Source: Parvivirga hydrogeniphila
GTDB lineage: Bacteria > Actinomycetota > Coriobacteriia > Anaerosomatales > Anaerosomataceae
NCBI RefSeq assembly: GCF_023371205.1
Contig: NZ_JAMCCO010000001.1
Coordinates: 368,662 to 432,661 of the forward strand
Reading direction: 5' to 3'
DNA length: 64,000 nucleotides
The notes under the pieces are model-generated. The model was given only the letters and a program-made list of their open reading frames with translations, did no database searches and was not told the origin of the DNA. The first letter of the stretch is position 1; every line of letters starts with the position of its first letter. The translations under genes were made by a program, and so were the position numbers. This document shows positions 17,881 through 23,802 of the stretch, one piece after another.

Positions 17881-18033
17881 GGGGAACACAGTTCACGTAC
17901 TGCGCATGTCTTGAAAGACGCAGAGGGAAGTACCGAGGGAGACGTCTGAGCGCTCGCCGGCCACACGGTCACCATGTGGCGAGCACGAGTCAATGGTGAG
18001 ACCGGCCCTGTTATGGGGCCGGTCTTTGCTTTC
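17881..18033 (+). promoter_or_regulatory. Candidate structured leader RNA with attenuator upstream of the adhesin
   Basis: The 227 bases between lon and the adhesin hold a series of pairings: GTACT/AGTAC enclosing a GTCT-TGAA-AGAC hairpin (about 17897-17933), a hairpin at 17952-17984 (GCTCG/CGAGC outside, CCACA/TGTGG inside), a seven-base match between its loop (TCACCAT, 17969-17975) and 17993-17999 (ATGGTGA) that would form a pseudoknot, and directly after it an intrinsic terminator at 17999-18033. This is the layout of a riboswitch or attenuator. It does not match any class I can name with confidence. Confidence 0.5.
17999..18033 (+). terminator. Intrinsic terminator in the adhesin leader
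   Basis: Ten-base stem AGACCGGCCC (17999-18008) with GGGCCGGTCT (18016-18025), a seven-base loop, then TTGCTTTC. It could end the lon transcript, regulate read-through into the adhesin, or both. The adhesin start lies only about 50 bases downstream. Confidence 0.75.
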
Positions 18034-18079: not shown

Positions 18080-21000
18080 GTGGTTGCTGTGATGCACTGG
18101 AGAAAGGACAGCGGAGGTATCGGCCGGGTGTTCTCGGCGCTCCTGGCCGTCCTGCTGGCGGTCGCGATGGTGAGCCCCGCGATCGCCGTGTATGCCGACG
18201 TAGGGAGCGAACCGTCATCGTCAGACTCGACGCCTCCGCCTGCCGCTGCAGAGCCAGCTGCGCCGGACACGCCTGAGGCGGCGATCGCCGAGCTCGACGA
18301 GCCTGCGGTCACTGAAGTCGTCGCGCCGGTGGCGCCTGAACGAGTCGCTGCACCAAGCGAGTCGGACGCGATTACCGAACCGGTGCCACCGCCCGCTCCG
18401 AAGCAGAACGCCGCTCCGCCGGTTCCGGCGGCTGAAGCCATCGGGCCGACGGCAGATTATGCCGAAGTCGGCTCGGTCGAATTCGAGGGCTGGGACAGAG
18501 ATCCGCATCCCAAGTGGACCAACGGGCAAGTGAGCGGGTACGTCGAAGGCGAATGGATCCCCTTCCGGCTGACCATCGATAACAAGCAGGGCAGCGGCGC
18601 GGTCCAGGTCCCGCCGATGGTCTACAAGGTCGACCACAAGTCAGGCTCAGCGGTAGCTATTGACGCTACGAAGGGCTGGCGCTGGGAGGTTGAGGGGGGT
18701 GCCTCGGGCGTCTACACGCCGACCATCAAGGACGATGATTCCGATCCGGCCTATCTCCGGACGGTCCTTCCCGAGGCGAGCGGCTTCGAGATCCCCAAGG
18801 GCAAGCAGGGCTACATATACTTCGAAGGGCATCTCGCGATCAGCCATGACTGGGCTCCGCTTGTTGGAGCCTCCGGCTACCCGGGTGCGAGCGCTCAGGC
18901 ACGTCTCGTCGAGTGGAACGGCGAGAACATCGGCGATAAGACCGTGCCGTTCAAAGTGGGGCCGTCGCTGATCCCGCCGTACAAGATCTGCGGGCTCAAG
19001 TTCGAGGACAAGAACGGGAACGGCATCCAGGACGCGGGCGAAGGTCCGCTTGCGGGGTTCGTCTTCCGCCTGCGCTACCTTGGGCCAGGCTTCGAGTTCA
19101 GCCTCGATGCCATGTCTGGTGCGGACGGGACATTCTGCTTCTCGGAGCTTCCCCCCGGCGGATACGAGCTCACAGAGGAGCCGAAACCGGGCTATCACCT
19201 CACGACCACGATTCCGAACCCCATCACCGTGGGAAGCAGCTCGACGCTGCCGAACCCGCTGAAGATCGGGAACCGTCGAAACGACGTCACCAAGACCTTC
19301 TCGCTTTCCGTGGGCGAGGGCATGCCTGCCGCCGACGGCTACTTCGTGCGCTACACGGCAGGCGCGTCCACCTCCGACCTCGCGCTTTCCCCGAGCGCCG
19401 AGGGCGGCTACGCGGCCGACGTCGTCCTGCCCTGGGGCACGACCATCTCCTCCTGGCAGTTCTTCGCCTCGCTCGGCGACGAGGAGGTGCCGCTTTCCGG
19501 CTCGCTCGGCCCCGAGACCCTCACCGGTCCCATGACCAACAGCTGGGAGCACGGCCCCGGCTCGATCTCGGGCCACAAGTACATCGACGCCGACGGGGAC
19601 GGCCAAGGCGACGTCCCGGGCGCGGGCTGGCTCATCAAGCTCTTCCGCGAAGGCCTCTTCTACGATCAGGCCACCACGGGCGAGGACGGCTCGTACTCGT
19701 TCACCGGGCTGCTCCCTGGCTCCTACACCGTGGAGGAGGCCGAGCAGGACGAGTACCTGAGGATCTGGCCTGAAGGGCCGGCGCTCGGGCCGTTCCAGAT
19801 CGGATCGGGCACCGCCATCGAAGGCGCGGACTTCGTGAACCAGCAGCGCCCCGGCGCGATCGAGGTCGACAAGTCCGTCTCGCCTGAGGCCGCGCATCCG
19901 GGCGACACGCTCGCCTACACGATCGATGTGCGCAACACAGGCCAGATCGCGGTCCTGCTCACGACGGTGACCGACCCGGCCTTCTACGGCGGCGCGAACC
20001 TGCTTCCCGCCCCGGTGTCGCTCGCCCCGGGCCAGGCGCTTTCGGACCTCGGGATGCAGATCGTGCTTTCCATGGAGGCGCCTGAGGCCGATTCGCTCGA
20101 CAACACGGCGTACGCAGAGGGGCTGACCTCCTTCGGCACCGTCTCGGACTCGGACGACGCGCACGTGGACGTCCTCATGCCCGCGCTCTCGGTGACCAAG
20201 ACGGCCGAGCCTGGCCGCGTCACCGACTCGGGCGAGGTCGCCTACCGCGTCACGGTTCTCAACACCGGCAACACCACGCTCACCGTCGACGTCGTGGACT
20301 GGGTGGACGGCGCGGTGCGGCGCACGCTCGCCACCGACCTCGTCCTCGGCCCCGACGAGTCCCATGCCTTCGAGTGGACCGAGACCGTGAGCGAGCCGAC
20401 CGTGGACACGGCGGTCGCGACCGGCACCGACGCGCTTCAGCGCGAGGTCACCGCCTCTGACGACGCGAGCGTGGCGGTCGACGTCACCAAGACCTTCTCG
20501 CTTTCCGTGGGCGAGGGCATGCCTGCCGCCGACGGCTACTTCGTGCGCTACACGGCAGGCGCGTCCACCTCCGACCTCGCGCTTTCCCCGAGCGCCGAGG
20601 GCGGCTACGCGGCCGACGTCGTCCTGCCCTGGGGCACGACCATCTCCTCCTGGCAGTTCTTCGCCTCGCTCGACGGCGAGGAGGTGCCGCTTTCCGGCGT
20701 CCTCGGTCCCGAGACCCTCACCGGCCCCATGACCAACAGCTGGGAGCACGGCCCCGGCTCGATCTCGGGCCACAAGTACGAAGACCTCAATGCCAACGGC
20801 TCGTGGGAGGAGAGCGAGGACGGGCTTGCTGGTTGGACCATCAAGCTCTACCGGCGCTCGACGATGCCGCCGGTCGACGGCGTGCAGCCGCTCGTGCTTC
20901 CGTACACGTGGACTCCTGTCGCTGAGACGGTGACCGGCGAAGGCGGCTGGTACTCCTTCACCGGCCTGCTGCCGGGCACGTACCGGGTCGAGGAAGTCGG

Positions 21001-22174
21001 ACAGCCGGGATGGCAGATGACGGACGCGCCTGATGGCGACCTCGTCATCGAGAACGGCACCGTCGTAGAGGACGCCGATTTCGGCAACCACAAGGTGCTG
21101 TACACCAAGACTTTCGAGCTCACGTTCGATTCGGCTCCAGCGGGCGTCACGTTCTTCGTGGAATTCACGCTCAACGGTGAGTCCATGCGGATCGACCTCA
21201 CCGGATCCGGGCCGTACGCGGCGTCGGTCGAGGTCGCGTATCCGTACGAGATCGGCAACGTGTCGTGGTACGCCGCTCAGGACGGGGAAGAGGTGCTTCT
21301 GGGCGTCACCGAAGGCGAAGTCCTCGACGGCGACACCACGAACTCCTTCACATACACCGCGAGCGTGTCCGGCCACAAGTTCTCTGACGACGACGGCAAC
21401 GGCGTGTGGGACAAACCCGATGAGGTCGGTCTCCCCGGCTGGACGATCGGTCTGTACCGCGAGTCGCCCAACGGCGGTATGGAGCCTGTCTCGCTGCCGG
21501 ATGCGGCGCCTGGGTTCGTGCTGTACGACGTCGCAGTGACCGGCGAGGACGGTTCCTACTCGTTCGACGGCCTGCTTCCCGGCACGTACTACGTGGCGGA
21601 GGAGCAGCAGGACGGCTGGACGCAGACGGCAGCTCCTGAGGGAACCTTCGTGGTGAGCAACGGCGCTGCGGTCTCGGACCTCGACTTCGGCAACCAAGAG
21701 GAGTTCCTGCCGTTCACCGACACCGAGATCGTGAAGCGCGCGGACAGGTCCGTCGCCGACGCCGGCGACCTTGTCACGTACACGCTGACGTACTCGAACA
21801 TAGGCGGCGGCGTGATCGACTCCGTGCGGATCGTCGATGACTACGACGAGCGGTACCTCACGCCCGTCGACACCGCTGGCGGCGCCGTCGTCGATGGGAC
21901 GCTCGTGTGGATCGACACCGTTCCGCTGGGCCCCGGTGAGACCAGGACCATCACCTACACGATGCGCATCTCGACCGAGTTGTCTGAAGGGACGACGAAC
22001 ATCCGCAACGTCGCCGTGATCAACCCCGGCGACCACGAGTCATCCTGGACGGTGCGGGTCACCACCGAAGAGCCGTTCCTGCCATTCACCGGCGGCGGCA
22101 TCACGTTGCTCGTCATCGCAGCGACGCTTGCAGCGGTGTTCGGCATCGCGATCCGCAGGCGGGCTCAGGAGTAG
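18080..22174 (+). CDS. LPFTG-anchored multidomain surface adhesin
   Basis: 1364 residues from GTG 18080 (AGGAGG six bases upstream; ATG 18092 is the alternative). Order: signal peptide (1-39), Pro/Ala/Glu-rich stalk (45-145), a unique beta domain (150-300), and SdrD B-like/prealbumin-like modules with Asp/Asn-rich calcium loops at about 304-390, 495-590, 893-1000 and 1094-1210. DUF11-type modules lie at about 592-690, 704-798 and 1214-1330, and KTF-start modules at about 401, 800 and 1011. It ends with the sortase signal LPFTG (1334-1338), a hydrophobic segment and RRRAQE. An internal LPFTD occurs near 1210. A sortase gene lies nearby. It probably acts in adhesion or as a fibrous cell-wall protein. 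Confidence 0.92.
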   Translation: MVAVMHWRKDSGGIGRVFSALLAVLLAVAMVSPAIAVYADVGSEPSSSDSTPPPAAAEPAAPDTPEAAIAELDEPAVTEVVAPVAPERVAAPSESDAITEPVPPPAPKQNAAPPVPAAEAIGPTADYAEVGSVEFEGWDRDPHPKWTNGQVSGYVEGEWIPFRLTIDNKQGSGAVQVPPMVYKVDHKSGSAVAIDATKGWRWEVEGGASGVYTPTIKDDDSDPAYLRTVLPEASGFEIPKGKQGYIYFEGHLAISHDWAPLVGASGYPGASAQARLVEWNGENIGDKTVPFKVGPSLIPPYKICGLKFEDKNGNGIQDAGEGPLAGFVFRLRYLGPGFEFSLDAMSGADGTFCFSELPPGGYELTEEPKPGYHLTTTIPNPITVGSSSTLPNPLKIGNRRNDVTKTFSLSVGEGMPAADGYFVRYTAGASTSDLALSPSAEGGYAADVVLPWGTTISSWQFFASLGDEEVPLSGSLGPETLTGPMTNSWEHGPGSISGHKYIDADGDGQGDVPGAGWLIKLFREGLFYDQATTGEDGSYSFTGLLPGSYTVEEAEQDEYLRIWPEGPALGPFQIGSGTAIEGADFVNQQRPGAIEVDKSVSPEAAHPGDTLAYTIDVRNTGQIAVLLTTVTDPAFYGGANLLPAPVSLAPGQALSDLGMQIVLSMEAPEADSLDNTAYAEGLTSFGTVSDSDDAHVDVLMPALSVTKTAEPGRVTDSGEVAYRVTVLNTGNTTLTVDVVDWVDGAVRRTLATDLVLGPDESHAFEWTETVSEPTVDTAVATGTDALQREVTASDDASVAVDVTKTFSLSVGEGMPAADGYFVRYTAGASTSDLALSPSAEGGYAADVVLPWGTTISSWQFFASLDGEEVPLSGVLGPETLTGPMTNSWEHGPGSISGHKYEDLNANGSWEESEDGLAGWTIKLYRRSTMPPVDGVQPLVLPYTWTPVAETVTGEGGWYSFTGLLPGTYRVEEVGQPGWQMTDAPDGDLVIENGTVVEDADFGNHKVLYTKTFELTFDSAPAGVTFFVEFTLNGESMRIDLTGSGPYAASVEVAYPYEIGNVSWYAAQDGEEVLLGVTEGEVLDGDTTNSFTYTASVSGHKFSDDDGNGVWDKPDEVGLPGWTIGLYRESPNGGMEPVSLPDAAPGFVLYDVAVTGEDGSYSFDGLLPGTYYVAEEQQDGWTQTAAPEGTFVVSNGAAVSDLDFGNQEEFLPFTDTEIVKRADRSVADAGDLVTYTLTYSNIGGGVIDSVRIVDDYDERYLTPVDTAGGAVVDGTLVWIDTVPLGPGETRTITYTMRISTELSEGTTNIRNVAVINPGDHESSWTVRVTTEEPFLPFTGGGITLLVIAATLAAVFGIAIRRRAQE
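19282..19582 (+). repeat. 301-bp intragenic direct repeat, copy A
   Basis: It matches 20479-20779 at an offset of exactly 1197 bases, with only a handful of differences by eye (around the ASLGDEE/ASLDGEE codons, the SGSLG/SGVLG codons and one silent change). It encodes residues about 401-501 of the adhesin. Near-identity at the DNA level indicates recent duplication or gene conversion. Confidence 0.95.
20479..20779 (+). repeat. 301-bp intragenic direct repeat, copy B
   Basis: Second copy of the 19282-19582 repeat; it encodes adhesin residues about 800-900. Because the copies are in frame and 1197 bases (399 codons) apart, recombination between them would remove or add one KTF/SdrB/DUF11 block without breaking the reading frame. 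Confidence 0.95.
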
Positions 22175-22187
22175 GGGCAGGCGCGTC

Positions 22188-22237
22188 AGCGCCACGAAAG
22201 CGGGGGCCGCATCCGCGGCCCCCGCTTTCGTGGCGCT
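22188..22237. terminator. Bidirectional terminator between convergent adhesin and metallopeptidase genes
   Basis: A perfect 23-base inverted repeat (22188-22210 and 22215-22237) with the four-base loop ATCC. No long T-run follows on either strand, but the stem is very stable, and it lies between the adhesin stop (22174) and the metallopeptidase stop (22256). Confidence 0.85.
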
Positions 22238-22255
22238 GCGCTTTCGGTGCTCGAC

Positions 22256-22831
22256 TCACCGCGGCGGCACGTTCTCGCCCCAGTCGATGCGACCGTTGTC
22301 CCGCCAGTCGATGATGTGCCACACCTCGTGGTTGAGGATGCGGGACAGGCTCGCAGTGTGGTTGGGGTTGATGACGATGCGTCCGGACTTGTAGTAGCAG
22401 ATCGCCTGGTAGCCCTTCGTATCGCCGAAGCTCACCGTCGTCCCCTTGAGGATCGGGTACTTCGCGATCAGCCCGGCCAGGATCCGCCGCGCCTCGGAGA
22501 GCTCGTCACCCGAGGAGGTCGCTGGCCGCGTGCTGACGGTCTTCGGCTTCGACGCGGTGGACGCCGTACCAGCGGGCTTGGGCACCGCGCCGCTCGGCTC
22601 AGCGACTGCCACAGGCGTCGGCTGCTTCCACGCGGCGGCCGGCACGAGCGCGACGTCCTCGAACGTCACCGCTGGGATCGCCGGTTGCGCGGCCTCGATA
22701 GTCGTCCCGATCGCCAGACGTGCCGATGCGCTGTCGCTCGGCAGGACGGCCACTGCGCTCGCCGCGATGGCGACCGCGGCGACCACCGCGAGGGTCATGA
22801 GCCTGGTGCGGCTCTTCGTTGCCTGCTTCAT
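22256..22831 (-). CDS. Small secreted HExxH metallopeptidase-like protein under c-di-GMP riboswitch control
   Basis: 191 residues. Signal peptide or membrane anchor at about 9-35, a Pro/Ala/Thr-rich linker to about 105, then a compact C-terminal domain. Near the end it has HEVWH (168-172), a zinc-protease HExxH motif, followed by IIDW and the terminal GENVPPR. Substrate is unknown; the convergent LPFTG adhesin with its Pro-rich stalk is the obvious candidate (inference). The ATG at 22831 follows AAGGGG. Its leader carries a GEMM riboswitch and terminator. No other protease domain is recognisable, so activity is not certain. Confidence 0.75.
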   Translation of the reverse strand: MKQATKSRTRLMTLAVVAAVAIAASAVAVLPSDSASARLAIGTTIEAAQPAIPAVTFEDVALVPAAAWKQPTPVAVAEPSGAVPKPAGTASTASKPKTVSTRPATSSGDELSEARRILAGLIAKYPILKGTTVSFGDTKGYQAICYYKSGRIVINPNHTASLSRILNHEVWHIIDWRDNGRIDWGENVPPR

Positions 22832-22861: not shown

Positions 22862-22908
22862 AAACCGGCCCGAACCCCCCGAGAAGGCCTCTTGAGGGTT
22901 CGGGCCGG
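22862..22908 (-). terminator. Expression-platform terminator of the c-di-GMP riboswitch
   Basis: A 13-base perfect stem (22896-22908 with 22865-22877) followed on the minus strand by TTT at 22862-22864. It lies 20 bases after the aptamer and 30 bases before the metallopeptidase ATG, where a riboswitch-controlled terminator would be. Confidence 0.8.
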
Positions 22909-22927
22909 CGTTCGTGCCAGCGCTCTG

Positions 22928-23016
22928 CCTCGGCAGCCCGGCTGTCCTGGGAGGGTGGCCTCCTGTAGACCCGTGGCTTTGCGTCGTCCGCCTTTCAGCG
23001 GAGGTGCCTTTTTCGG
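22928..23016 (-). ncRNA. Cyclic di-GMP-I (GEMM) riboswitch
   Basis: Read on the minus strand, the region shows the class landmarks in order: AAAAAGGCACC, a P2 hairpin with a GAAA tetraloop (TCCGC/GCGGA), the conserved GACGCAAAGCC, ACGGGTCTA, a variable P3 arm, and the 3' strand AGCCGGGCTGCC that closes P1. This pattern is specific for GEMM-I aptamers, which bind c-di-GMP. A terminator follows, then the metallopeptidase gene. Whether ligand turns expression on or off cannot be read with certainty. Confidence 0.92.
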
Positions 23017-23097
23017 GGTTCGCCCGGTATTCGCTTCTCAATCGCCGTACACTTGCAGTATCGGCAGCGGCGATGTCCCGCTTTAGCGAGGATGACG

Positions 23098-23802
23098 ATG
23101 GCGCGGACAGTATTCGAAGGTACGAGCGAGAACGCGGCAGAGACACCGCAGCGATCCGCTCGCGCCGTTTCGCGCACGCGCCTCATGAGCAACTGGTTCT
23201 TCGGCGTGGCCCTCGGCATCCTGGCCTACTACGGCGTGACGGATTTGCTCGCGGAACGCGCGCAGCAGGTGCTTCGTGCGGAGTCCCCGGCCCTGTCAGC
23301 TTTGGCCATCTCTCATGAGGTGACGACCACGCTCGACTTCAGTGCGTGGAAGAACGATGCGGCCTACTGGGCAGCGCTTCGTGAAGGGGAGGCGTTCGCG
23401 CGTCTCGTTTGTGACGCGATGGGACTTGACGCTGTGGTCGTAAGAGGAGTCGCTCCGCGCGACCTGACGCGGGGCCCCGGATGGGCGCCGTACACGGACG
23501 TCCCCGGGCCGACGGGCAACTGCGGGATCTCGGGCCACCGGACCACGTACGGTGCCCCGTTCCGGCGGATCGACCGCGTCAAGCCGGGGGACGCGATCGT
23601 GCTCGTCGCGCCGTACACGACCTACCGGTACGTGGTCGAGCGCGTCTTCGTCGTGCGCCCCGACCAGGTGGAGGTCTTCGACACGACGGACACTCCGTCG
23701 CTCACGCTGACCGCGTGCCATCCGCCGTACAGCGCCCGGTACAGGATCGTGGTTCGTGCGAAGATGGTGGGCGCTTCAGTGAATGACACGACCGGCGAGT
23801 GA
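23098..23802 (+). CDS. Sortase (class D/E-like transpeptidase)
   Basis: 234 residues. One N-terminal membrane anchor (about 31-50), then the sortase barrel with the catalytic His147 in GHRTT, Cys207 in LTACHPP, and Arg in the ARYRI segment (214 or 216). It cleaves LPxTG-type signals and links proteins to the cell wall; the LPFTG adhesin upstream is the likely substrate. The ATG at 23098 is six bases from GAGG; an in-frame ATG at 23092 overlaps the SD. It is divergent from the metallopeptidase and followed by a short gap to the epimerase gene. Confidence 0.9.
   Translation: MARTVFEGTSENAAETPQRSARAVSRTRLMSNWFFGVALGILAYYGVTDLLAERAQQVLRAESPALSALAISHEVTTTLDFSAWKNDAAYWAALREGEAFARLVCDAMGLDAVVVRGVAPRDLTRGPGWAPYTDVPGPTGNCGISGHRTTYGAPFRRIDRVKPGDAIVLVAPYTTYRYVVERVFVVRPDQVEVFDTTDTPSLTLTACHPPYSARYRIVVRAKMVGASVNDTTGE

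Follow-up and report, generated by a model that had tools for sequence, protein, structure and literature searches.

Two classes of c-di-GMP riboswitch at a putative adhesin-peptidase locus of Parvivirga hydrogeniphila: a candidate attachment and release module

The locus described here lies in a 64,000-nucleotide window (the whole stretch of Parvivirga hydrogeniphila DNA that was analyzed), in which a gene for a large surface protein and a gene for a small putative metallopeptidase converge, each preceded by a c-di-GMP riboswitch of a different class, and a sortase gene diverges from the peptidase gene (Table 1). The earlier note had described the class I switch of the peptidase gene on its own; this switch stood, and it is joined by an overlooked class II riboswitch on the LPFTG gene and by the adjacent sortase, so that the locus reads as a two-switch circuit and not as an isolated riboswitch.

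Table 1. Features of the locus, in window coordinates.
Feature	Position	Strand	Description
Class II c-di-GMP riboswitch, GAG variant	17929-18014	plus	RF03169 50.6 bits, cut-off 40; in surface-protein leader
Intrinsic terminator	17998-18026	plus	13-bp stem and T-rich tail; GAGACCGGCCC serves both as its 5' arm and as the class II aptamer 3' end
LPFTG surface protein	18092-22174	plus	Signal peptide, SdrD_B/SpaA/DUF7507/DUF11 repeats, sorting signal; convergent to peptidase
24-bp perfect hairpin between convergent genes	22187-22238		No U-tract; probable shared 3' end
Secreted putative metallopeptidase, 191 aa	22256-22831	minus	HEVWH...D...WGE; signal peptide, Ala/Thr/Pro linker, ~85-aa minimal zincin domain
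Expression-platform hairpin H	22865-22908	minus	Stem of 13 bp without U-tract; covaries in relatives
Loop strand GGCCUUCUCGGGGG of hairpin H	22876-22889	minus	Complementary to aptamer 5' strand 23019-23006 (anti-hairpin)
Class I c-di-GMP aptamer	22928-23017	minus	RF03167 60.6 bits; RF01051 68.5 bits
5' leader	23015-23034	minus	S1 (23034-23024) and SD-masking strand (23023-23015)
Sortase	about 23092-23802	plus	PF04203, E 3.4e-29; divergent from peptidase

Scoring of the region upstream of the peptidase gene with the covariance model RF01051, which the earlier note had proposed as a check, gave 68.5 bits (cut-off 35) at C1:391590-391679(-), window positions 22929-23018. This was the sole RF01051 site across the 1.84-Mb genome (1,840,996 bases on 9 contigs). 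The GEMM-I landmarks that had been claimed for the minus strand, a GAAA-capped P2, GACGCAAAGCC and AGCCGGGCTGCC, are all present. The same region also passed the Rfam gathering threshold of the variant model RF03167 (c-di-GMP-I-GGC; cut-off 59, E 8e-12). In the alignment, however, position 47 is the canonical-like A and not the G of the RF03167 consensus (GACGCAAAGCC in the window versus GACGCGAAGCC), by which the GGC-variant label was ruled out; the RF03167 call is probably a mere near-tie of E-values. The ligand-contact identities G20, A47 and C92, read off alignments in Vc2 numbering, are present. A class I c-di-GMP riboswitch upstream of the peptidase gene is thus confirmed at the level of sequence, and its position in front of a gene for a tiny secreted HExxH protein is beyond chance, with an aptamer found 86-437 nt upstream of 45 of the 55 peptidase homologues.

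In the leader of the surface-protein gene, the GAG-variant model RF03169 reached its gathering cut-off, whereas the canonical class II model RF01786 scored 35.0 bits at the same site and stayed under its own. Both aptamers of the locus therefore reach the cut-offs of variant models, but while the class I site is canonical at position 47, the class II site does carry the GAG: it precedes the ACCG core (GAGACCG here, GCAACCG in the canonical form), and GAGACCG is invariant in 31 aligned loci. Its ligand is presumably c-di-GMP. In all of the 31 aligned class II loci the invariant aptamer 3' end GUGAGACCG runs into the 5' arm of the terminator hairpin. Aptamer and terminator are mutually exclusive, and the ligand should therefore switch the adhesin on. 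At two other loci, paired class II GAG aptamers ~620 nt apart were observed ahead of one LPFTG gene (L052:5225-6010(-) and L060:5580-6367(-)).

The start of the surface protein was set by the position of the Shine-Dalgarno (SD) sequence, the listed ORF start at 17993 falling inside the class II aptamer. The resulting protein of 1360 residues ends like a sortase substrate, with an LPxTG motif, a hydrophobic stretch and a positive tail (LPFTGGGITLLVIAATLAAVFGIAIRRRAQE). Around 125 residues upstream of the LPFTG motif and immediately preceding the last DUF11 domain (window ~21700-21725(+)), the core of the sorting signal is repeated internally as (E/P)FLPFT(D/E); this copy recurs in roughly 16 neighboring adhesins and may be a target or a remnant site. 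The neighboring adhesins were not found to share a target motif, Pro-Pro or other, and XXPPXP occurs at two sites in the N-terminal part of the window adhesin and is missing from most neighbors. The perfect hairpin between the convergent genes gave a sub-threshold match to MIR9776, which was discarded as spurious, the element being an inverted repeat between the two genes. Its lack of a U-tract suggests that this lineage may end transcripts with U-less hairpins.

As the earlier note had stated, the peptidase gene encodes a tiny secreted HExxH protein of 191 residues; it has a signal-peptide-like N terminus and the motif HEVWH. The signal peptide is followed by a variable linker and about 85 conserved residues, and searches of the sequence against Pfam, NCBIfam and PDB sequences returned no match. 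In 44 homologues, H73, E74, H77, D80, W89 and E91 (numbering of the 96-residue domain) are invariant, and the tail past the HExxH is about 18-30 residues long in every one of them. Candidate third metal ligands are residue 83, an Asp that is replaced by His in two lineages, and the invariant E91 as a possible Glu zinc ligand, the C-terminal tail being modelled with low confidence. An AlphaFold2 model of the domain (pLDDT 83.9) consists of a helix, three strands and the HExxH helix. It comes closest in fold to the minigluzincins selecase, jannalysin and abylysin (Foldseek E 0.018-0.2, prob 0.89-1.00; VIA Z 6.2-7.2, where a Z under 8 may reflect a common arrangement only), and PPEP-2 scored far lower (6fpc: Z 4.5, rmsd 4.8, 82 aligned). 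The model has the ~100-residue zincin fold with HExxH by which minigluzincins are recognized, and shares with them the order of helix, strands and HExxH helix; in contrast to them, the Parvivirga protein is secreted, has a very short C-terminal tail and is riboswitch-controlled, and sequence similarity between the two was not detectable. The model is that of a minimal zincin, probably with proteolytic activity, and the protein suggests a new, undescribed family of very small secreted zincins.

Between the class I aptamer and the peptidase gene, the arms of hairpin H, CCGGCCCGAACCC and GGGTTCGGGCCGG, lie at 22908-22896 and 22877-22865, 33 nt ahead of the ATG at 22831. A 13-base terminator stem 30 bases before the ATG had been proposed; the stem is there, at 33 nt, but a terminator is not supported. 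The hairpin is followed by GGTTTCGCGC instead of a U-tract, a terminator scan of the minus strand at the class I leader called none, and no U-tract was found past the class I hairpin in Anaerosomatales. Because of the missing U-tract, hairpin H was rejected as a canonical intrinsic terminator, and a terminator function is at most putative. In four relatives from outside the taxonomic class (L153, L159, L160 and L161), a terminator with a U-tract does follow the aptamer at 18-45 nt, and in two of these four forcing of P1 flipped the predicted fold from antiterminated to terminated.

The class I hairpin sits past the aptamer and can coexist with it. As an alternative, the hairpin loop can pair with the 5' strand of the aptamer, and in the window this anti-hairpin pairing was predicted at -18.2 kcal/mol versus -7.2 kcal/mol for shuffled loops (z -4.4). 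Across 27 loci the mean z was -2.3, with p<0.05 in 19. When folding was halted before the 3' arm of the hairpin, the anti-hairpin prevailed in 19 of the 27 loci, including the window, and P1 in none. Since the hairpin does not overlap the aptamer and the anti-hairpin is made from the aptamer's own 5' strand, the platform has the layout usual for an OFF switch, and the class I riboswitch would be expected to act in this direction in vivo.

Two further helices were predicted in the leader. S1 pairs with 22868-22857, just past hairpin H (swap test, kinship ignored: own -21.7 versus swapped -19.5, 0/2000), and the SD-masking strand pairs with the SD region (swap test, kinship ignored: own -6.3 versus -4.3, 0/5000). 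We infer that the S1 helix is part of the ligand-free state and the SD helix part of the bound state. Given the conserved long-range helix with the SD region, control may be exerted at translation, and if the helix assignment holds, class I control in Anaerosomatales would be partly translational. Equilibrium folding of the full leader did not separate bound and free states of class I and supported neither direction; SD accessibility was 0.35 in the free form and 0.41 when P1 was imposed, a small shift against the preferred model. With the two ensembles alike and this slight opposite trend, the attempt to derive the direction from equilibrium folding was dropped. Likewise, a helix between the C-run of the aptamer and the SD, seen with RNAalifold, was dropped for its little covariation and mostly invariant bases.

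Peptidase homologues were detected in 51 of 99 relatives, all of the same order except for one weak, stop-containing match. The usual arrangement starts with lon, followed by the class II aptamer, the LPFTG gene, the peptidase gene and its class I aptamer (both on the opposite strand), and the sortase. The sortase lies beside the peptidase in 38 of the 46 relatives whose upstream sequence is long enough, and 28 peptidase homologues have a convergent class II aptamer 1.8-7.3 kb downstream, several others being cut by contig ends. The 47 evaluable loci comprised 37 with class I aptamer and convergent LPxTG gene, three with the aptamer only (riboswitches without an adjacent LPxTG gene occur in genomes G030, G047 and G051), seven with neither and none with the LPxTG gene only, so every evaluable locus without a class I riboswitch also has no adhesin. 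The association is significant when uncorrected for phylogeny (Fisher p 1.9e-6). On the peptidase tree the class I aptamer requires at least four changes, and the link between riboswitch and adhesin yields only 2-4 independent pairs, all agreeing and too few for significance, for which reason a phylogeny-corrected test was dropped. A profile search of 396 genomes of the phylum identified ten further peptidase genomes from five other families; a class I aptamer lies upstream in six of these ten loci, and LPxTG or sortase genes are near several of them. Plasmid-borne peptidase homologues were not found.

Some copies of the peptidase gene have other surroundings. In certain genomes the gene is kept beside lon with neither adhesin nor riboswitch, and four copies without riboswitch or LPxTG neighbor (L111, L112, L113 and L066) lie in part beside a sortase, where other substrates may apply. 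In genome G048, a tandem pair of peptidase paralogues has one class I aptamer apiece (L062:1229-3089(+)).

A comparable arrangement is known from Clostridioides difficile, where the adjacent genes for PPEP-1/ZmpI (CD2830), a small secreted zinc metalloprotease, and the sortase-anchored adhesin CD2831 are repressed by a class I and induced by a class II riboswitch, respectively, and PPEP-1 releases the adhesin (PMC6366702, PMC6447587). Both loci have the class I switch on the gene of the secreted protease and the class II switch on that of the sortase-anchored adhesin; the Parvivirga locus differs in its convergent genes, the sortase alongside, the GAG-variant class II aptamer and its phylum. 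The pointer of the earlier note to PPEP-like cases held for this comparison but not for membership. The peptidase has no sequence match to PPEP family models or solved PPEP structures, it has no equivalent of the C-terminal domain that follows the HExxH helix in PPEPs (PMC12828418), and its neighboring adhesins have no conserved XXPPXP or other Pro-Pro site at which cleavage, here presumed, would occur. Because the peptidase fails these sequence and domain tests and the adhesins share no Pro-Pro site, the same circuit seems to be built with another protease, and the module probably works like the C. difficile pair. In Bacillus thuringiensis the c-di-GMP riboswitch Bc2 likewise controls a surface adhesin gene, that of a collagen adhesion protein (PMC4933901); the abstract of that report mentions no paired protease switch. 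In the literature searched, no paper on the adhesin/peptidase locus was found.

Other readings of the locus were weighed. The peptidase might process the surface protein, pilus-like fibers or the sortase into function, with both genes on together. The tight clustering of adhesin, peptidase and sortase would fit, as would equilibrium folding, in which the SD was slightly more accessible once the aptamer had formed, but co-induction needs no two riboswitch classes on separate transcripts, and the non-overlapping hairpin with its anti-hairpin is the usual OFF layout; we consider such a maturation role unlikely. Little credence is likewise given to a module that integrates two cues, class I sensing c-di-GMP and the GAG-variant class II another ligand. 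This would agree with the GAG model beating the canonical one at the adhesin locus (50.6 versus 35.0 bits) and with the canonical nature of the genome's second class II site (66.6 versus 59.1 bits for the GAG model), yet a ligand can survive changes at variant positions, and the class II scaffold and ON architecture are unchanged.

It is also conceivable that the small HExxH protein is inactive or acts on unrelated extracellular substrates, the neighborhood then reflecting shared regulation of envelope genes only. The missing family assignment, the unproven third metal ligand with C-terminal residues modelled at low confidence, and the persistence of the gene beside lon point this way. Set against them are the invariance of H, E, H, D and the later W-x-E in 44 homologues, the modelled zincin core with minigluzincins as nearest folds, and the absence of the adhesin from all evaluable loci without the riboswitch, and we regard this explanation as very improbable.

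Taken together, we think it reasonably likely that the locus is a c-di-GMP-controlled attachment and release module, presuming that class I is an OFF switch in vivo, that the GAG aptamer binds c-di-GMP, and that the peptidase is proteolytic and cuts the adhesin as its substrate. At high c-di-GMP the class II aptamer would fold and make its 3' end unavailable to the terminator that overlaps it, and the LPFTG surface protein would be made and anchored by the adjacent sortase. The class I aptamer would fold as well and keep its 5' strand from the hairpin loop, so that the hairpin would form, the SD would be masked or transcription would stop, and no peptidase would be produced. At low c-di-GMP the adhesin would be off and the peptidase on and secreted, where it would most likely cleave adhesin already anchored and free the cell. 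Cells would thus probably stick at high c-di-GMP and cut loose at low.

Synthesis of the signal is plausible, as 12 GGDEF domains are encoded in the genome. Members of the genus are non-motile and thermophilic, and Parvivirga hydrogeniphila Es71-Z0120 (order Anaerosomatales), the strain of the window, grows with insoluble ferrihydrite (PMC9686372). The other, canonical class II riboswitch of the genome lies directly upstream of a gene for a 1318-aa multihaem c-type cytochrome, beside a second CxxCH-rich protein (L071:1950-6086(-), C2:292261-296397), and attachment and extracellular electron transfer may be coupled through c-di-GMP.

Whether Actinomycetota independently evolved an adhesin/sheddase circuit of the C. 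difficile type, using both riboswitch classes in the same opposed roles and a different, undescribed family of minimal secreted metallopeptidases, kept across an order of subsurface bacteria and partly beyond, appears to us evenly balanced. If true, the placing of a surface anchor and its possible cutting enzyme under opposite c-di-GMP riboswitches would have arisen more than once, and this design would need neither PPEP-type proteases nor a gut pathogen. The model is a first hypothesis on attachment to and departure from insoluble minerals by Anaerosomatales, an order with cultured iron reducers among its members, and with Parvivirga hydrogeniphila and Anaerosoma tenue, cultivated type strains of the order are at hand for testing it.
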